A DNA stretch of 64,000 nt. Origin: Rothia sp. P100 (GTDB lineage Bacteria > Actinomycetota > Actinomycetes > Actinomycetales > Micrococcaceae). The stretch is taken from assembly GCF_023712425.1 (NCBI RefSeq), contig NZ_JAMAYG010000001.1:682001-746000 (forward strand), in the 5' to 3' direction. The translations under genes and the position numbers were made by a program. Positions 17,871-42,913 of the stretch are shown here, one piece after another. The notes beneath the pieces were generated by a model, which did no database searches, had not been told where the DNA came from, and saw only the letters and a program-made list of their open reading frames with translations. Within the stretch, counting starts at the first letter, position 1; each line of letters opens with the position of its first letter.

Positions 17871-18548
17871 ATGGATATTGAAGTACTACGCCGCGCCCCC
17901 CTCTTTGCATCACTTGATGATGAGGCTTTTGCAGCTTTGACCGAAGACATCACCGAAGTTGACCTGTCCCGCGGCGCTACCCTTTTTTACGAAGGCGATC
18001 AGGGCGATCAGCTCTACTTCGTCATCTCCGGCAAGATGAAGCTGGGACGCACCGCATCTGACGGCCGTGAAAACTTGGTAGCCATCATGGGCCCCGGTGA
18101 AATCTTCGGCGAGATGGCGCTCTTTGATCCCTCACCCCGTTCCACCAGCGCGACCGCTGTGTCTGAAACCCGCCTGGCAGGTGTTAAGCACGAGTCCCTG
18201 CGCAAGGCAATGGAAAAGTCACCTAATATCTCAGCTCAGGTACTGCAGGCTCTAGCACGCCGCCTGCGCCGTACCAACGAGAACCTGGCTGACCTGGTTT
18301 TCTCAGATGTTCCCGGTCGCGTGGCTAAGGCCCTCCTTGATTTGGCTGACCGCTTCGGTCGCCCCGCTACGGACGGCGTCCTGGTTGCTCACGAGCTCAC
18401 CCAGGAAGAACTGGCACAGCTGGTTGGCGCTTCCCGCGAAACCGTGAACAAGGCTCTTGCTGAGTTCGTTTCACGCGGTTGGATCCGACTCGAAGCACGC
18501 GCAGTGGTTATCCTTGACCTGCAGCGTCTGCGTCAGCGTTCACGCTAA
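17871..18548 (+). CDS. crp: Crp/Fnr-family transcription regulator (GlxR/Crp-like)
   Basis: 225 residues. The N-terminal cyclic-nucleotide-binding domain has the phosphate-binding cassette GEIFGEMALFDPSPRSTSA at about 76-94, with Glu81, Arg90 and Ser/Thr retained, so cAMP binding is likely. The C-terminal winged helix shows TQEELAQLVGASRETVNKALAEF at about 177-199. Length and sequence fit the actinobacterial Crp/GlxR group, a global regulator of carbon use that binds TGTGA-N6-TCACA. AGGAG lies 10 bases before the ATG. The gene lies beside nudix, ridA and marP-like genes, the usual actinobacterial neighbourhood. It is followed by a very strong terminator. Confidence 0.92.
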   Translation: MDIEVLRRAPLFASLDDEAFAALTEDITEVDLSRGATLFYEGDQGDQLYFVISGKMKLGRTASDGRENLVAIMGPGEIFGEMALFDPSPRSTSATAVSETRLAGVKHESLRKAMEKSPNISAQVLQALARRLRRTNENLADLVFSDVPGRVAKALLDLADRFGRPATDGVLVAHELTQEELAQLVGASRETVNKALAEFVSRGWIRLEARAVVILDLQRLRQRSR

Positions 18549-35807: not shown

Positions 35808-36449
35808 CTATTTGAGGATGATGACATCCAGAGTACGGGGGCCGTGCACGCCCTCCACACGAATCAGCTCGATATCACTGGTGGCTGAGGGGCCAGAAAT
35901 CCACGTGATGGGCTTTTCGATATCCAGTCGAGCAACAGTTTCAGGAATAAGCTCCACAATGGTTTCCACCGGCACCACGCAGATGTGGTGATCAGGGACC
36001 AGGGTGATAGCGCGGCGTCCCTCAGCAGGGTTGCTGTTGAGCGCAATGGTACCAGTTTCAGCGCAGGACACGGTCGATGAGGTCACCACGGCGTCCACAG
36101 CGTCTAATTCGCGCACGGAAAGCGCACCTGGCTTATCAGCGTTACCAGAATCTGTGACCGCTGAACGTGAAGCGGTGTCCTCAGGCAACCAAGCGGCATC
36201 CAGACCAGCAGGCACCACGTAGCGCGATGCCTTAGCCAGTAGCTCATCAATGCGACCGGCGATAGTCTCAGCGGTTTCATGATAAACGTTGGCCTTGTAG
36301 TCAATCAGACGGTCGACCAGAATCTCAATGATTTCTTCCTGACCCTTGTCGCTGACTCGGCGGTAGGTACGCACCGGTTCAGCGGGCTGGGGTGAATCCC
36401 AAAGGGAGGCACGGATGCGGCCCAGAATCTCGCTCTTAGCATCGGTCAT
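35808..36449 (-). CDS. lutC: lactate utilization protein C (LUD domain)
   Basis: 213 residues with the LUD/YkgG domain: ILGRIRASLWD at the N-terminus, VVTSSTVSCAETGTIALNS near 110-128 and ISGPSATSDIELIRVEGVHGPRTLDVIIL at the end. The SATSDIE...VHGPR motif is the hallmark of LutC. It is the third protein of the L-lactate oxidising LutABC complex in the cytoplasm. The start ATG overlaps the lutB stop by 1 base (TAATG), and AGGAGG lies upstream inside lutB. It is the last gene of the operon. Confidence 0.93.
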   Translation of the reverse strand: MTDAKSEILGRIRASLWDSPQPAEPVRTYRRVSDKGQEEIIEILVDRLIDYKANVYHETAETIAGRIDELLAKASRYVVPAGLDAAWLPEDTASRSAVTDSGNADKPGALSVRELDAVDAVVTSSTVSCAETGTIALNSNPAEGRRAITLVPDHHICVVPVETIVELIPETVARLDIEKPITWISGPSATSDIELIRVEGVHGPRTLDVIILK

Positions 36450-38071
36450 TACTGTGCCTCCTTGATGATGGGGTTAGCGGCCTCAGCTTTGGCGTGAGCC
36501 TCAGCTACCTTAGTTTTGTTAGCCTCCATGAGGGCAGCAACGTCCACCCGGGAGCCGCCCACCCGCTTGGGCGCAGCACCGCGCTCTTTCTTCCACTGGT
36601 TACGGAAGGAGGTGGACGGGGGCTCAGGAATGTCTCGGTAGTCAGTCCAGCCGCCAACCAGACCGGGCAGCTTGCTAATCTTGTGCTTCTTACCGGTCAC
36701 CAGCTTTGAGACAGGCAGACCCTTGGTTGCCAGGCCCATGAGCTTACCGGAGCTAAAGAGCTTCTTAGCGCCAAACATGATGGCGTCCATCTGGTAGTGG
36801 GGGTCCTTCTTACCGCCGGCAAATTCGCCCTGTGCCTTCTCGGCGTCCACTGCCTTACCGCGCAGGTGAACCAGCACGTCAGGGATGTTAATCTTTACGG
36901 GGCATGCGTCATAGCAAGCACCGCAGAGGGAGGACGCGAAGGGCAGGGTGGCATTGTGCTCGTTCTCGATACCGCCCAGCTGGGGTGAGAGAATGGCGCC
37001 GATGGGCCCGGGGTAGGTTGAGCCGTAGGCGTGACCACCGGCGCGCTCGTACACTGGGCAGACGTTCATGCAGGCGGAGCAGCGGATACAGTTTAGAGCC
37101 TGACGGCCTACCTGGTCAGCTAGGACAGCGGTGCGACCATTGTCCATGAGGATGACGTGCAGGTTCTGGGGGCCATCGCCCGGGGTGACACCGGTCCACA
37201 TGGAGGTGTAGGGGTTCATGCGCTCACCGGTGGACGAGCGAGGCAGCAGCTGAGTGAAGACCTCAAGGTCCTGTACGGTGGGCAGTAGCTTCTCAACACC
37301 CATGAAGGTAATGAGGGTGTCGGGCAGGGTCAGGCACATGCGACCGTTGCCTTCTGACTCAACGATGGTCATGGTGCCGGTATCGGCGATACCAAAGTTT
37401 ACGCCCGAGATAGCCACCTTGTTGGTCAGAAACTTCTCGCGCAGACGGAAGCGAGATGCCTCGGCGAGTTCAGCAGGATCATCCGACAGGTTGGGATTAA
37501 CGCCCTCAATCTTGCGGCGGAAGATATCGCGAATCTCGGTGCGGTTGCGGTGGATAGCGGGTACCAGGATGTGGGAGGGACGGTCGTTATCGCCCAGCTG
37601 CACAATTTCTTCTGCAAGGTCAGTTTCGATAGCGTGAATACCGAATTCTTCCAGGTACTCGTTCAGCCCGGTTTCGGCTGTAGCCATGGACTTGATCTTA
37701 TTGACCTCTGTGACACCCTCAGCCTGGATGAGCTTAAGAGCAATCTCATTTGCCTCGTGAGCGTCGCGTGCCCAGTGCACGTGACCGCCCTTGGCAGTGA
37801 AGTTACGCTCAAACTCTTCGAGGTAGGTATCCAGGTTAGCCATAACCTGCTGCTTGATCATGGAACCGGCGGTGCGTAGATCCTGCCAGTCGGGCAGTTC
37901 GCTGGTAACAGCGTCACGCTTGGTACGGATCTTATGAGTCGCAAAGCCCAGGTTGGCGCGTAGTTGCTCGTTCTTGAGCTCACGTTTTGCGTATTCGGGG
38001 AAGGGCTCGTGTTCAAAGATATTGCCCACTCCGTGGCGGACCTGGGGCATACCGAGTGCGGTTGCAGTCAT
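36449..38071 (-). CDS. lutB: L-lactate utilization iron-sulfur protein B
   Basis: 540 residues. The N-terminal LUD domain contains VAISGVNFGIADTGTM near 213 and ESEGNGRMCL. Two ferredoxin-type clusters follow: CIRCSACMNVCPVY near 325-338 and CGACYDACPVKI near 383-394. It carries electrons in LutABC. The C-terminal ~130 residues are Lys/Ala-rich. A strong ribosome site AGGAGG overlaps the lutA stop. Length is slightly over the B. subtilis protein (about 480) because of the tail. Confidence 0.94.
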   Translation of the reverse strand: MTATALGMPQVRHGVGNIFEHEPFPEYAKRELKNEQLRANLGFATHKIRTKRDAVTSELPDWQDLRTAGSMIKQQVMANLDTYLEEFERNFTAKGGHVHWARDAHEANEIALKLIQAEGVTEVNKIKSMATAETGLNEYLEEFGIHAIETDLAEEIVQLGDNDRPSHILVPAIHRNRTEIRDIFRRKIEGVNPNLSDDPAELAEASRFRLREKFLTNKVAISGVNFGIADTGTMTIVESEGNGRMCLTLPDTLITFMGVEKLLPTVQDLEVFTQLLPRSSTGERMNPYTSMWTGVTPGDGPQNLHVILMDNGRTAVLADQVGRQALNCIRCSACMNVCPVYERAGGHAYGSTYPGPIGAILSPQLGGIENEHNATLPFASSLCGACYDACPVKINIPDVLVHLRGKAVDAEKAQGEFAGGKKDPHYQMDAIMFGAKKLFSSGKLMGLATKGLPVSKLVTGKKHKISKLPGLVGGWTDYRDIPEPPSTSFRNQWKKERGAAPKRVGGSRVDVAALMEANKTKVAEAHAKAEAANPIIKEAQ

Positions 38072-38073
38072 GT

Positions 38074-38871
38074 TTACTTACCTCCTGCGGTAACAGAGAC
38101 GGGGCCAGAAACCTTAAGCGGGTTTTCTTTAGTGGATGCCAGAATTTCAGCGAAGTGAACCGTCTGAACCGGTGATTCCTTACGGGACAGGGCGCCGCCG
38201 ATGTTCATCAGGCAGGAGACGTCACCGCCAGTGCACACGCTGGCACCGGTTTCTTCAATGTGCTGCACCTTATCAGCGACCATAGCGCCTGAAGTGTCGG
38301 CGTTCTTAAAGGAGAAGGTGCCACCAAAGCCGCAACACTGATCTTGGTCTTCAATCTGGGTGTATTCCAGGCCTCCCACGGTGCGCACCAAATCTTCCTG
38401 GCGAGTGCCAAGACGTAGCAGACGCATGCCATGGCAGGACGCGTGGAAGGTAACCTTCTCAGGGAAGTAGGAGCCCAGCTGTTCAGCAGCATCAGTAATG
38501 CCGCAGATATCAATCAAGAACTGGGACAGCTCAAAGGTGCGGGCCGCCAGGTCAGCAGCTGCGGTGGCGGTGGCGGTGTCACCGGCTCGCTCAGCAATCA
38601 TGGGCTGCTGGTGTCCCAAGGAAGCAACGCAGGAGCCCGAGGGGGCTACGGCTACGTCAAAGTCCCACTCGCTGAAGGCCTTAACGTGGGTTTTAACCAC
38701 CGGGTAAGCATCGTCAAAATATCCCGAATTGACGTGCATCTGGGAGCAGCAGGTCTGCCCCTGAGGGAACACAACTTCATGCCCCAAACGCTCTAGGACG
38801 CTAACGGTAGCTGCCGCTACCTTCGGGTACATAGCGTCTACGATGCACGTTGAAAATAGTGCCACACGCAT
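38074..38871 (-). CDS. lutA: L-lactate utilization protein A (CCG-domain)
   Basis: 265 residues with two cysteine-rich CCG repeats: CC at 41-42 with the preceding FPQGQT, SCHGMR with C146 near the middle, and DQCCGFGGTFS with CC at 179-180. These bind an iron-sulfur cluster in the related GlpC/HdrB proteins. It is the first gene of the lutABC operon on the minus strand. A perfect TGGTCTGACCA operator lies 189 bases upstream of the start, so repression by the LldR-like protein encoded at 41.2 kb is expected. Confidence 0.93.
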   Translation of the reverse strand: MRVALFSTCIVDAMYPKVAAATVSVLERLGHEVVFPQGQTCCSQMHVNSGYFDDAYPVVKTHVKAFSEWDFDVAVAPSGSCVASLGHQQPMIAERAGDTATATAAADLAARTFELSQFLIDICGITDAAEQLGSYFPEKVTFHASCHGMRLLRLGTRQEDLVRTVGGLEYTQIEDQDQCCGFGGTFSFKNADTSGAMVADKVQHIEETGASVCTGGDVSCLMNIGGALSRKESPVQTVHFAEILASTKENPLKVSGPVSVTAGGK

Positions 38872-39059
38872 GTCTATCTCTCAATCTTCCGTACGGTGCT
38901 CCCTGCCGCCATCCGTAGCGCTACCGCCGTCTTTGAGCGGGTGCCGGAAGCGAGAGAGGGCCCTTAGTTTGGATTCTCTTCTTCACTCTTCATTTAACAC
39001 GATATTGGGTCACTTTTACCTTTTTAATAAGGGCACATTTTTTTACTCAAATCATCTGA

Positions 39060-39070
39060 TGGTCTGACCA
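39060..39070. promoter_or_regulatory. LldR-type operator 1, lutA side
   Basis: TGGTCTGACCA, a perfect palindrome apart from the centre base. It fits the TNGTNNNACNA site known for the FadR-type regulator LldR of Corynebacterium glutamicum. It lies 189 bases upstream of the lutA start. Confidence 0.75.
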
Positions 39071-39206
39071 CATCAAGACCAGTTCGACTCCTTGACCTTG
39101 TCGGGGGAGCATCGACAGTTTGAGCCATCCCTCATTGCCCCTGCGCCAGCATTTCGGAAACATCTAAAACACCTTCAGATAAGCCCAAAAAAGTGGTTTG
39201 AACAAC

Positions 39207-39235
39207 TTGGCAGAGTGTTATAAGTCATGTAGTCT
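39207..39235 (+). promoter_or_regulatory. putative lctP promoter
   Basis: TTGGCA at 39207-39212 and TAGTCT at 39230-39235 with a 17-base spacer. The second operator begins 14 bases after the -10, where repressor would block initiation or early elongation. Confidence 0.5.
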
Positions 39236-39249
39236 AAACCTCATCACTA

Positions 39250-39260
39250 TGGTCTGACCA
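39250..39260. promoter_or_regulatory. LldR-type operator 2, lctP side
   Basis: A second exact TGGTCTGACCA, 190 bases from the first (start to start) and 80 bases before the lctP GTG. The identity of the two copies makes chance unlikely. Confidence 0.78.
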
Positions 39261-39340
39261 CACAATCAGGTCTCTTAATTTTTATATTTGATAACTCATA
39301 GAAGAGTCATCATCTCTGCACACATTCAAGGAGGTTTACG

Positions 39341-41056
39341 GTGGAGAATACTTATACCGCTGTAACCGACGCCGTAGGTGGCAGCCTTGCGCTCAGCGCA
39401 CTGGTTTCAACCCTGCCCCTACTGGCGTTCTTCATTATGCTGCTGGGTTTTAAAGCCCGCGCACACGTCTCGGGTCTTGTTTCCCTCATTGTCGCTATCC
39501 TCGTAGCCGTCTTCGGCTTCGGCATGCCTTTCGATCTTGCCGGTATGAGCGCTTTCCGCGGCGGTATCTACGGTCTCTTCCCCATCGTCTGGGTTATCCT
39601 CATGGCGATCTGGTTCTATCAGATCACCGTGCTCTCAGGCCGCTTTGAAGACCTCCGACGCACCTTCGACCTCATCGGCGGCGGCGACCTACGCATCCAG
39701 GCAATCCTCATCGCTTTCTGCTTCGGCGGTCTACTTGAGGCACTTGCAGGCTTCGGCGCCCCCGTTGCTATTACCGCAACCATGATCCTGGCACTCGGTG
39801 TTAAGCCCCTCAAGGCAGCGACCACCGTCCTTATCGCCAATACCGCCCCCGTTGCCTTCGGCGCAGTTGCTATCCCCATCACCACCGCCGGTGAAGTTGC
39901 CTACGGCGCCAACGAACAGGGCGCCCAGGCTGCCGTCAACGTGGCAGCCGTTGTTGGTCACCAGGCGCCCTTCATCGCCTTCTTCGTCCCCTTCATCCTG
40001 CTCTGGATCCTAGATGGTGTAAAGGGCATCAAGGACGCGTGGATGCACGCCGCCGTTATCGGTCTGGCCTTCTCAGTGGCGCAGTGGTGGGCAGCTACTT
40101 ACTTCGCCTACCAGCTCACCGACGTGATTGCCTGCATTGTCTCCATTGCAGCAGCCGTAGTCTTTATGCGCTTCGTCAAGCCTCGCGGAGTTGCGGGTGT
40201 CCGCGAGCGCTACGGCATCACTGAGTCAGCTGAATCAGTGCACCTGCCCGCCCGCCGCATCTGGATGGCACTCATGCCCTACCTCATTGTTGTTATCATC
40301 TTCGGTCTAGCTAATCTCTACACCCCGCTGGTTAACTGGCTCAAGGCGCAGTCCATCAAGTTCGATATTCCCCTGCTGGCAGAACGACTGGTCACCGCTT
40401 CTGGCGATCCCGTCAACTCCGCCTACACCTGGGCCTGGCTGGCTAACCCCGGCACCTACCTGCTCTTCTCGGGTCTGATTGTTGCTGTGATCTACTCCAT
40501 CTTCAACGAGAAGGGTGCCTACAAGCTTGGCCTTGGGGACGTCCTCAAGGAAATCGGCGCTGTCGCCTACAAGATGCGCTGGACCGCTGTCACCATCGCC
40601 CTGGTTCTGGCCCTGGCCTTCGTCATGAACTACTCAGGTCAGACCGTTGCCATCGGTGAATTCGTTGCCTCCCTCGGTGTGGCTTATGCCTTCCTCTCAC
40701 CCGTTCTGGGTTGGGTTGGTACCGCAGTTACCGGTTCTGACACCAGCGCCAACGCGCTCTTCTCCAAGCTGCAGGTCACTGCCGCTGAGAACTTGCAGGC
40801 GAACGGTGTTCCCGGCGCTCACCCCGAACTTATGCTGGCTGCTAACACCACCGGTGGTGTTGTGGGCAAGATGATCTCACCCCAGTCCCTGGCTATCGCA
40901 GCTACCTCGGTGAACATGGAAGGCAAGGAATCAGAGATTTTCAAGGCTGTCCTGCCCTGGTCCTTCATCCTCCTGTTTGCTATCTGCGTGCTGGTCTTCT
41001 TGCAGTCCAACATTCTGGGATTCATGGTTGACCCCTACTTCGCCAGCAACCAGTAA
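39341..41056 (+). CDS. lctP: L-lactate permease
   Basis: 571 residues, normal for the LctP family, with about 13 transmembrane segments. Family marks are ALAGFGAPVAITATMILALGV near 130-150, VVGHQAPFIAFFVPF near 205 and GSDTSANALFSKLQVTAAENL near 466-486. Close to the C-terminus MISPQSLAIAATS is the conserved LctP motif. It imports L- and D-lactate, and often glycolate, with protons. The GTG start at 39341 has a perfect AAGGAGG seven bases upstream. A terminator follows before lldR, so regulator expression may come from read-through or its own promoter. Confidence 0.95.
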   Translation: MENTYTAVTDAVGGSLALSALVSTLPLLAFFIMLLGFKARAHVSGLVSLIVAILVAVFGFGMPFDLAGMSAFRGGIYGLFPIVWVILMAIWFYQITVLSGRFEDLRRTFDLIGGGDLRIQAILIAFCFGGLLEALAGFGAPVAITATMILALGVKPLKAATTVLIANTAPVAFGAVAIPITTAGEVAYGANEQGAQAAVNVAAVVGHQAPFIAFFVPFILLWILDGVKGIKDAWMHAAVIGLAFSVAQWWAATYFAYQLTDVIACIVSIAAAVVFMRFVKPRGVAGVRERYGITESAESVHLPARRIWMALMPYLIVVIIFGLANLYTPLVNWLKAQSIKFDIPLLAERLVTASGDPVNSAYTWAWLANPGTYLLFSGLIVAVIYSIFNEKGAYKLGLGDVLKEIGAVAYKMRWTAVTIALVLALAFVMNYSGQTVAIGEFVASLGVAYAFLSPVLGWVGTAVTGSDTSANALFSKLQVTAAENLQANGVPGAHPELMLAANTTGGVVGKMISPQSLAIAATSVNMEGKESEIFKAVLPWSFILLFAICVLVFLQSNILGFMVDPYFASNQ

Positions 41057-41087
41057 CACTCTGTAGCCTCACGGCTAAGATATATGA

Positions 41088-41130
41088 GACGGTGCAGCGC
41101 CCTCGCTTCGTTGGGGCTGCACCGTCTTGC
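41088..41130 (+). terminator. terminator between lctP and lldR
   Basis: GACGGTGCAGC at 41088-41098 pairs with GCTGCACCGTC at 41116-41126, followed by TTGCT. The T run is short, so partial read-through into lldR is likely. Confidence 0.65.
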
Positions 41131-41160
41131 TACCCCCATTCCTTTCATGAAAGTAAAGAC

Positions 41161-41922
41161 GTGAAAGATAAAGAACGCACCTACACCGCTCTACTGGAGT
41201 CGGTGGAATACAGGCTGCGCCACGGCCAACTACGCGTGGGCGACCGCCTACCCGGGGAACGGACCCTGGCTGAAGAATACGGGATCTCGCGCCCATCTGT
41301 ACGCGAAGCTCTGCGCATCCTCAGCGCAGTAGGGCTCATTCGCTCGGGCGTAGGATCAGGCCCTAAATCAGGGGCCGTTGTCATCTCCCAGCCCTCGGAT
41401 GCTCTGGGTTGGGCTCTGCGCATGCACATCGCCACGCGCACCCTGCCCGTAGCAGACATCGTCACCACCCGCGTCCTGCTCGAAGGTAACGCTGCCGCCC
41501 AAGCAGCTAAGGTGGCGCACCTGCCCGAACACAGCGAAGCTCTGCAAAGGGCAGAGAGCTACCTCGATGAGATGAGTCACGCCGGTATCTGTGATGACCG
41601 TTTCCACTTCTGCGATACTCGCTTTCACTACGAAATCTCGTCACTAAGCGGCAACATCGTCATGGAAACCGTCATCGACTCACTGCACCTTGCCACGGTG
41701 GGTTATGTACAAGAAGCAGTGCCCTATTTAGAAGACTGGGAAAGCACCAAAAAGGAGCTCCAGCGGCAGCACAGGGAAATTTTCGCAGCGGTGACCACCG
41801 GTGAGCCTGAACGCGCCCAGGTAGCGGTAGCCGAGCATATCCGCTGGTTCTATGCTCTCTCAGAGATTGGTGCCACCCACTACGAGTACCACCAGAAGGT
41901 ACGCGCAGAGCAGGGCAGCTAA
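41161..41922 (+). CDS. lldR: FadR-subfamily GntR regulator, LldR-like
   Basis: 253 residues from GTG 41161. The frame is open upstream to 41092, but that stretch is the lctP terminator hairpin. The winged helix is near 14-75 with PGERTLAEEYGISRPSVREALRIL. The C-terminal FCD domain has the metal/ligand residues around DDRFHFCDTRFHYEISSLSGN and a His near HIRWFYAL. The location behind lctP and opposite lutABC, with matching operators, makes it the lactate-responsive repressor, released by L-lactate in Corynebacterium. Weak Shine-Dalgarno. It ends in a strong shared terminator. Confidence 0.87.
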   Translation: MKDKERTYTALLESVEYRLRHGQLRVGDRLPGERTLAEEYGISRPSVREALRILSAVGLIRSGVGSGPKSGAVVISQPSDALGWALRMHIATRTLPVADIVTTRVLLEGNAAAQAAKVAHLPEHSEALQRAESYLDEMSHAGICDDRFHFCDTRFHYEISSLSGNIVMETVIDSLHLATVGYVQEAVPYLEDWESTKKELQRQHREIFAAVTTGEPERAQVAVAEHIRWFYALSEIGATHYEYHQKVRAEQGS

Positions 41923-41933
41923 CCTAGGCATAC

Positions 41934-41981
41934 AAAGAGGCGGGGTGCACCAGGAAGATTCCTGGTGCACCCCGCCTCTTT
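41934..41981. terminator. bidirectional terminator between lldR and purC
   Basis: AAAGAGGCGGGGTGCACCAGG pairs perfectly with its complement around a 6-base loop and has short T runs on both sides. It serves both convergent genes. Confidence 0.93.
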
Positions 41982-41986
41982 AGCCC

Positions 41987-42913
41987 TTAAGCCTTAAAGG
42001 TCTGCCCGGTCAGGCGTTCAAAGGCTTCCACATAGCGTGCCCGGGTCTTCTCAACCACGTCGGTAGGTAGTTCCGGCACAGGGCCGGTGCCGTCCCAACC
42101 AGAAGCCGCGCTCTTGAGCCAGTCGCGCACGTACTGCTTATCGAAGGACGACTGGGAGCGGCCTGGCTTGTAGTCCTCGGCGTCCCAGAATCGGGAGGAA
42201 TCGGGGGTGAGGACCTCGTCACCCAGGGTGATTTCACCACGGTAAGAGTCGGTGCCGAACTCAATTTTGGTATCGGCGAGAATAATGCCGCGTTCGCGGG
42301 CAATTTTCTCTGCGGTTTGGTAAACGTAGAGGGTGAGTTCCTCCAGGCGGTCTGCGATTGCTTCGCCGACTTCTTCGTTGAGCTCCTCGATGGTGATGGG
42401 CTCGTCGTGTTCACCCACTTCTGCTTTACCGGTAGGGGTAAAAAGCGCGTTCTCAAGGCGGGAACCATCCACAAGACCGGCCGGTAGCTTGTATTCATTG
42501 ACCATTCCCGTCTTTTGGTAGGAGACAAGCCCTGAGCCGGTGAGATAACCACGCACGATACATTCCACGGGAAACATATTCAGAGATTTGCAAATCATGG
42601 CTCGCCCGGCAACAACTTCAGGCACATCGGTGGAGAGCACGTGGTTGGGCACACCGGTGAGCTGCTTGAACCACCAGAGAGACATCTGGGTAAGGATCTT
42701 GCCTTTATCGGGGATTTCAGTGGGGAGCACTTGGTCAAAGGCGCTGATACGGTCCGTAGCAACGACCATGACACAACCGGCGCGAAGTTCAGCATCGTCG
42801 CTGAGGTTCACCCCTACCGCGTCCTGTGTATCTTCTAAGGGGATGTAGAGGTCTCGGACTTTACCGGAATAAACGTGCTTCCAGCCGGGAATATCAACCG
42901 GGGTGTTGGTCAT
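41987..42913 (-). CDS. purC: phosphoribosylaminoimidazole-succinocarboxamide synthase
   Basis: 308 residues, the longer actinobacterial/eukaryal-like form. GKVRDLY is at 17-23, VVATDRISAFDQVLPTEIPDKG near 50-71, the SAICAR synthetase signature VECIVRGYLTGSG near 117-129 and ILADTKIEFG near 217-226. It joins aspartate to CAIR in purine synthesis. It lies 100 bases after purD on the same strand, but a hairpin lies between them, so it may also have its own promoter. Confidence 0.95.
   Translation of the reverse strand: MTNTPVDIPGWKHVYSGKVRDLYIPLEDTQDAVGVNLSDDAELRAGCVMVVATDRISAFDQVLPTEIPDKGKILTQMSLWWFKQLTGVPNHVLSTDVPEVVAGRAMICKSLNMFPVECIVRGYLTGSGLVSYQKTGMVNEYKLPAGLVDGSRLENALFTPTGKAEVGEHDEPITIEELNEEVGEAIADRLEELTLYVYQTAEKIARERGIILADTKIEFGTDSYRGEITLGDEVLTPDSSRFWDAEDYKPGRSQSSFDKQYVRDWLKSAASGWDGTGPVPELPTDVVEKTRARYVEAFERLTGQTFKA

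Follow-up and report, generated by a model that had tools for sequence, protein, structure and literature searches.

Rothia belong to the lactate-using bacteria of the mouth and airways, and genes for lactate utilization can come under GntR-type control, as with LutR and lutABC in B. subtilis. The stretch of DNA analysed here (the window, 64,000 nucleotides of Rothia sp. P100) carries a lutABC operon divergent from a second unit made up of the lactate permease gene lctP and a regulator gene, and the 469 bp gap between the two units holds the same 11-base word twice. The locus raises the question of which protein reads this word and what it does to the genes on either side. From the comparisons set out below, we consider it very probable that the two sites, O1 and O2, are operators of the LldR-type regulator (FCD, FadR-subfamily GntR) encoded after lctP, and that they serve to repress both units until lactate arrives. 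An LldR-type lactate switch is of a known kind, well supported and fairly ordinary; what it adds is a specific predicted operator word for LldR that members of a bacterial family share. Among the open-access papers listed under the names Rothia and Arthrobacter, at most 20 per search, no title concerns LldR operators in Rothia or its family. The genes and sites are as follows, in window positions.

35808–36449, minus strand: lutC, LUD domain (PF02589)
36449–38071, minus strand: lutB, LUD and 4Fe-4S (PF02589 over cut-off; TIGR00273 at 442.2 bits, slightly below its cut-off of 444.8)
38074–38871, minus strand: lutA, subunit with CCG cysteine-rich domain (Pfam PF02754)
39060–39070, unstranded: O1, candidate LldR-type operator on the lutA side, exact match to TGGTCTGACCA
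39250–39260, unstranded: O2, candidate LldR-type operator on the lctP side, exact match to TGGTCTGACCA, 14 bp 3' of a -10-like hexamer
39341–41056, plus strand: lctP, L-lactate permease, GTG start after AGGAGG (TIGR00795 at 398.8 bits, cut-off 341; PF02652)
41092–41922, plus strand: lldR-type regulator gene, GntR helix-turn-helix and FCD, 276 codons (PF00392, PF07729; nearest PDB entry 2di3)

Both copies of the word read on the plus strand and lie 190 bp apart, start to start, with O1 at 188 bp from the start of lutA and 270 bp from lctP, and O2 at 80 bp from the lctP start. A previous sequence-only reading of this DNA had described an exact 11-base palindrome occurring twice at this distance; the two copies and their spacing hold, but the word is an inverted repeat of 5+1+5 (TGGTC-T-GACCA; TGGTCAGACCA on the minus strand) rather than a perfect palindrome. 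Within the gap, TGGTNNNACCA is seen twice against 0.010 expected from 200 dinucleotide shuffles, and over the whole window three times against 0.88; the third copy, at position 925, was rejected as an operator as it falls within a 293-codon open frame. The same reading would have lost its footing had the word been common across the genome, and it is not: TGGTCTGACCA has three copies, counting either strand, in 2,404,879 bases (20 contigs). With one mismatch allowed, TGGTCNGACCA gives 72 genome matches, fewer than the 128 of a reversed control, so that genome-wide only the exact word is informative.

The two exact copies match the core, TGGTCnGACCA, of the LldR box of E. coli, which an excerpt of PMC10272880 gives as AAnTGGTCnGACCAnTT from genomic SELEX, two per region. 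TGGTCNGACCA is the core of this box and fits more tightly than TNGTNNNACNA, the motif that the sequence-only reading had attributed to corynebacterial LldR. Its view of the sites as LldR-type operators is supported, while TNGTNNNACNA proves looser than the E. coli core and, with six occurrences in the window against 8.7 expected, is without power alone. The likeness to O1 and O2 of E. coli lldPRD takes in the same core word, two boxes per target region, and a permease and regulator in one operon. On the other hand, Rothia has a divergent lutABC operon where E. coli has lldD in the same operon as the permease and regulator, and the outer AA/TT of the E. coli box is no clear feature among the 42 Rothia sites tabulated.

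To what extent the word is kept can be judged from 62 divergent lutA/lctP gaps, 34 from Rothia and 28 from 14 other genera. The latter come from 60 stretches of 58 genomes (97 genomes had a match), of which 28 gave usable gaps, 31 had no divergent pair and one, L134, was left out because its lutA and lctP are more than 1.2 kb apart; no matching word was found in 7 of these 32 stretches lacking a usable gap (L118, L120, L135, L141, L143, L146, L161). Every one of the 62 gaps has TGGTCNGACCA at no more than one mismatch (exact in 57), and all 62 have the word at 0–1 mismatches on the lctP side. Among the Rothia gaps 30 carry TGGTNNNACCA and the remaining four CGGTCTGACCA. Matches to lutA, lctP and lldR occur together in 34 of 35 genus genomes (the window and 33 further stretches), the nearest named relative being R. 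endophytica (LctP 96% identical). The word TGGTTCTACCA, present within lctP of many genomes, was discarded as a site as it falls inside the coding match.

This conservation bears directly on whether the two copies are chance repeats or a terminator stem. A terminator-like match does overlap O2, but the word is kept in 62/62 gaps while the remaining gap sequence has largely diverged (nine gaps aligned), and we give this explanation next to no probability. A search for a riboswitch or other RNA in the gap, run on window positions 38500–42000, gave no Rfam match there up to E 1.

The gene directly after lctP encodes a protein with both GntR and FCD domains over cut-off (PF00392, 57.1 bits; PF07729, 60.4 bits), in agreement with the FadR-type regulator that the sequence-only reading had placed there. 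Its closest solved structure is 2di3 (E 1e-37), named as LldR of C. glutamicum in an excerpt of PMC4494728. Homology among most genus relatives, within the matches listed, starts at residues 9 to 28, and the true start of the regulator may be about 20–28 codons further downstream. Residues D175, H179, H227 and H249, which we take to be the metal/ligand site of the FCD domain, align to D, H, H and H of 2di3 and are kept in 93 of the 94 regulator matches compared, the sole exception being a paralogue in R. amarae. The protein scores 87.2 bits with the NCBIfam model of E. coli LldR (NF007741), far below the cut-off of 311, and so is not filed as an E. coli-type LldR equivalog. We regard the regulator assignment as strong. 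For C. glutamicum LldR, the targets named in an excerpt of PMC3022706 are cg3226-lldD, ldhA and the fru operon; a putative lactate permease is likewise among them. Downstream, a hairpin at 41934–41982 lies between convergent lldR and purC and is probably a shared terminator; two miRNA models of Rfam match it, both below gathering.

We took 80 named lctP loci, sought the word within 700 bp upstream of lctP and sought an lldR match in flanks of up to 3 kb. The exact word was present at 29 of the 35 loci with an lldR match (the remaining six have one-mismatch words) and at 2 of the 45 without (Fisher p 1e-13, a value inflated because the rows are related and most loci without lldR are Corynebacterium). 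Where lutABC follows lctP in the named Corynebacterium loci, the exact word is absent upstream of lctP. The two exact-word loci without linked lldR are those of Tersicoccus solisilvae, where lldR lies beyond lutABC, on the far side (L118, L241), and of R. amarae.

The case of R. amarae KJZ-9 (G003, L181) bears on other possible binders. This genome keeps lut and lctP, with an exact operator at L181 2929–2939, 72 bp before the matched lctP start, yet only about 44 C-terminal residues of its lldR are recognisable (E 1e-5; L181 4829–4948); while the regulator search gave matches in 35/35 genus genomes, that in G003 is a distant paralogue only. R. amarae is thus apparently a natural lldR-null (one genome), and an operator kept where lldR is reduced to a remnant requires us to assume, for this genome, that the loss is recent or that something else binds. 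One such binder would be a different regulator acting on the sites generally, e.g. the product of a GntR-FCD paralogue gene lying 15 kb ahead of the window (L068), or a protein resembling PdhR. The word itself leaves room for this, as it also fits the consensus TKGT/ACMA, with 3 nt between GT and AC, that an excerpt of PMC4494728 describes as common to FadR-subfamily regulators, and R. amarae has kept the operator and the paralogue while losing most of lldR. However, the exact word upstream of lctP tracks the linked lldR gene, and the R. amarae paralogue is without two of the four FCD metal residues; we regard a different regulator as quite improbable. The paralogue near the window is a protein of 628 residues with a long charged tail (L068 1283–3169, G000:C11), and similar-scoring paralogue matches occur in many genus genomes, likewise within long open frames.

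With the linked LldR-type protein as the preferred reader of the word, the placement of O2 suggests how it may act on lctP. The elements concerned, together with two that are taken up further below, are these.

17871–18548, plus strand: gene for a Crp/GlxR-type regulator (PF00027 and PF13545), candidate binder of the relatives' dyad beside O2
38993–39041, minus strand: conserved block between O1 and lutA, from the alignment of nine gaps
39207–39212, plus strand: -35-like TTGGCA of the putative lctP promoter, in a CTTG block conserved in the alignment of nine gaps
39215–39228, unstranded: GlxR/CRP-like dyad in degenerate form, GTGTTATAAGTCAT; GTGA-N6-TCAT stands here in many relatives
39230–39235, plus strand: -10-like TAGTCT (TANNNT) of the putative lctP promoter, a hexamer conserved upstream of the lctP-side site

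A TANNNT hexamer precedes the lctP-side site, ending no more than 17 bp before it, in 32/34 Rothia and 28/28 other gaps, that is, in 60/62 against about 11.8 expected from mononucleotide shuffles (7.5 for Rothia and 4.3 for the others). In 25 of the 34 Rothia gaps it ends 14–17 bp before the site (14 bp in the window), which would place the site just downstream of the transcript start. Outside Rothia the lctP side has operators 14–15 bp apart, at up to one mismatch, in 24 of 28 gaps, and the hexamer ends 1–6 bp before the first operator of the pair, also in 24 of 28, so that the pair probably spans the transcript start.

We propose the following course of events. In the absence of lactate, a regulator dimer on O2, which would cover roughly positions +9 to +19 relative to the lctP transcript start, would block the lctP-lldR promoter; another dimer, on O1 and next to the conserved block in which the lutA promoter may lie, would control lutABC. 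L-lactate would then bind the FCD domain and free the regulator from the DNA, leading to joint induction of uptake, oxidation and the regulator itself.

A second protein may take part in some relatives. In 35 of the 62 gaps (16/34 Rothia, 19/28 others) the dyad GTGA-N6-TCAY precedes a lctP-side operator by no more than 60 bp, where mononucleotide shuffles predict 0.1 and 0.0, respectively, and 12 of the 28 non-Rothia gaps have the form GTGA-N6-TCAC. It resembles the GlxR consensus TGTGA-N6-TCACA, and an excerpt of PMC7999487 describes GlxR as acting beside LldR at ldhA of C. glutamicum. The likeness to ldhA lies in a lactate gene having a GlxR site upstream of its LldR site; the differences are that ldhA is fermentative, whereas permease and oxidation genes are concerned here, and that in the window the dyad is degenerate. 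The window's gap has no GTGA-N6-TCAY, its own dyad being GTGT-N6-TCAT, and this dyad is flanked by the -35-like and -10-like hexamers, a placement that is not an activating one for lctP. The window's Crp/GlxR-type gene, 20 kb from the dyad, has a product that matches Crp/Fnr regulators in the PDB (among them 3mzh, 3h3u and 4byy) at E 1e-74 or better.

On the lutA side the picture varies between lineages. In the window's clade (14 gaps, grouped by protein identity without a tree), O1 is kept with 0–1 mismatches in 13 gaps, the window's included, and was not found at this threshold in L049. In these 13 gaps 188–211 bp separate it from lutA, and the conserved block falls between the two; in other genera the lutA-side site, present in 25/28 gaps, is 20–89 bp from lutA. 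In six Rothia (L046, L048, L050, L051, L054, L055) both sites are within about 100 bp of lctP and 57–59 bp apart. The word is stable in these comparisons and the layout variable, and since the lutA-side site shifts between lineages or is absent, control of lutA is less certain than that of lctP. The conserved block holds the words TTTAACACGAT (38993–39003, plus strand) and AAAATGTGCCCTTATTA (39025–39041, minus strand) and is a possible lutA promoter region; as a recurring regulon motif it was rejected, each word having one exact genome match.

This distance of O1 from lutA admits a division of labour in which O2 blocks lctP while O1, upstream of the lutA promoter, serves for activation by a dimer carrying lactate, as is described for O1 of E. 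coli. The clade's placement of O1, with the conserved block between it and lutA, would suit such an arrangement, and the dual role in E. coli is given in a figure legend of PMC5412874; the lutA promoter, on the other hand, is a candidate block only. We hold activation from O1 to be doubtful.

The sequence-only reading had also suggested that 190 bp would allow DNA looping, i.e. that dimers on O1 and O2 join, loop out the DNA between them and silence both promoters at once, as drawn for O1 and O2 of E. coli. Across the gaps, the distance between neighbouring operators, tandem pairs aside, ranges from 48 to 240 bp. The spacings in the window's clade (190, 189, 155, 220–221, 157 and 240) are close to whole turns of 10.5 bp (five lineages, mean cosine 0.71), with about 4% of random sets reaching the clade maximum over repeats of 10.3–10.7 bp, and the figure legend in the biosensor paper PMC5412874 has LldR dimers on the operators form a tetramer on O1 and O2. 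Outside the clade, however, 25 distinct spacings do not favour whole turns (Rayleigh p about 0.18; mean cosine -0.21 with a repeat of 10.5 bp, and from -0.33 to 0.02 over repeats of 10.3–11.0 bp), a single word at no more than one mismatch is all that 13/62 gaps hold, and an excerpt of PMC7804116 reports LldR distal/proximal synergy as absent in an E. coli reporter library. With the in-phase lean confined to the window's clade, helical phasing was set aside as proof of looping. Looping is possible and not supported, and we think it unlikely.

The third genomic copy of TGGTCTGACCA (L069 2686–2696; G000:C13:62685) lies between pyc and a ParA-like gene, 198 bp upstream of pyc, which encodes pyruvate carboxylase. 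Three genomes, the nearest ones, have the exact word at this site (those of the window, R. endophytica and G031), and it forms a 13-base island where the sequence of the third is otherwise diverged. With 27 pyc upstream regions available (for 8 of the 35 genus genomes no pyc match reached the threshold), three have the word against 0.46 expected at up to one mismatch, which is weak by count alone, and 24 lack it at that threshold; the site was therefore dropped as a genus-wide feature. Pyruvate carboxylase probably belongs to the regulon in the closest relatives of the window. R. aerolata has an exact word about 80 bp before cstA (L263 2019–2029), and we list pyc and cstA as candidate extra targets. 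Among 20 other exact words in the genus, hand-picked from the matches listed, 13 fall in stop-to-stop frames of at least 150 codons and seven outside: those at R. endophytica pyc (L248) and R. aerolata cstA (L263), and those of L254, L255, L250, L251 and L262. That of L254 is intergenic, with an MFS gene on one side and a metE-like gene on the other, and L255 is its likely counterpart. Together with the word itself and the apparent loss of lldR in R. amarae, the pyruvate carboxylase candidate provides test material for the switching of lactate use.

A bolder account would join these lineage differences into one history. The three-operator plan common outside Rothia (one by lutA and a pair spaced 14 bp over the lctP start) would have given way, in the Rothia clade of the window, to two operators far apart and in phase, which either loop or allow activation of lutA from O1, with the regulon also gaining pyruvate carboxylase in the nearest species. 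We judge this history as a whole to be improbable. If true, it would tie lactate sensing to anaplerosis. The turnover of layout around an unchanged word is itself a ready-made series of natural variants on which a need of LldR for looping can be tested.

Two minor observations concern the word elsewhere. Three MAGs labelled Corynebacterium (L176, L235, L237) have lctP-lldR with an exact operator and an lldR match, and L235 and L237 also have the divergent lut plan of the family, with words spaced 14 bp; these are either mis-binned contigs or cases of transfer. LldR-like genes of other genera that have no nearby lut or lctP match (L147, L149, L150, L154, L160) carry TGGTCCAACCA or TGGTTGGACCA near their own start, perhaps as autoregulatory sites with a changed centre.
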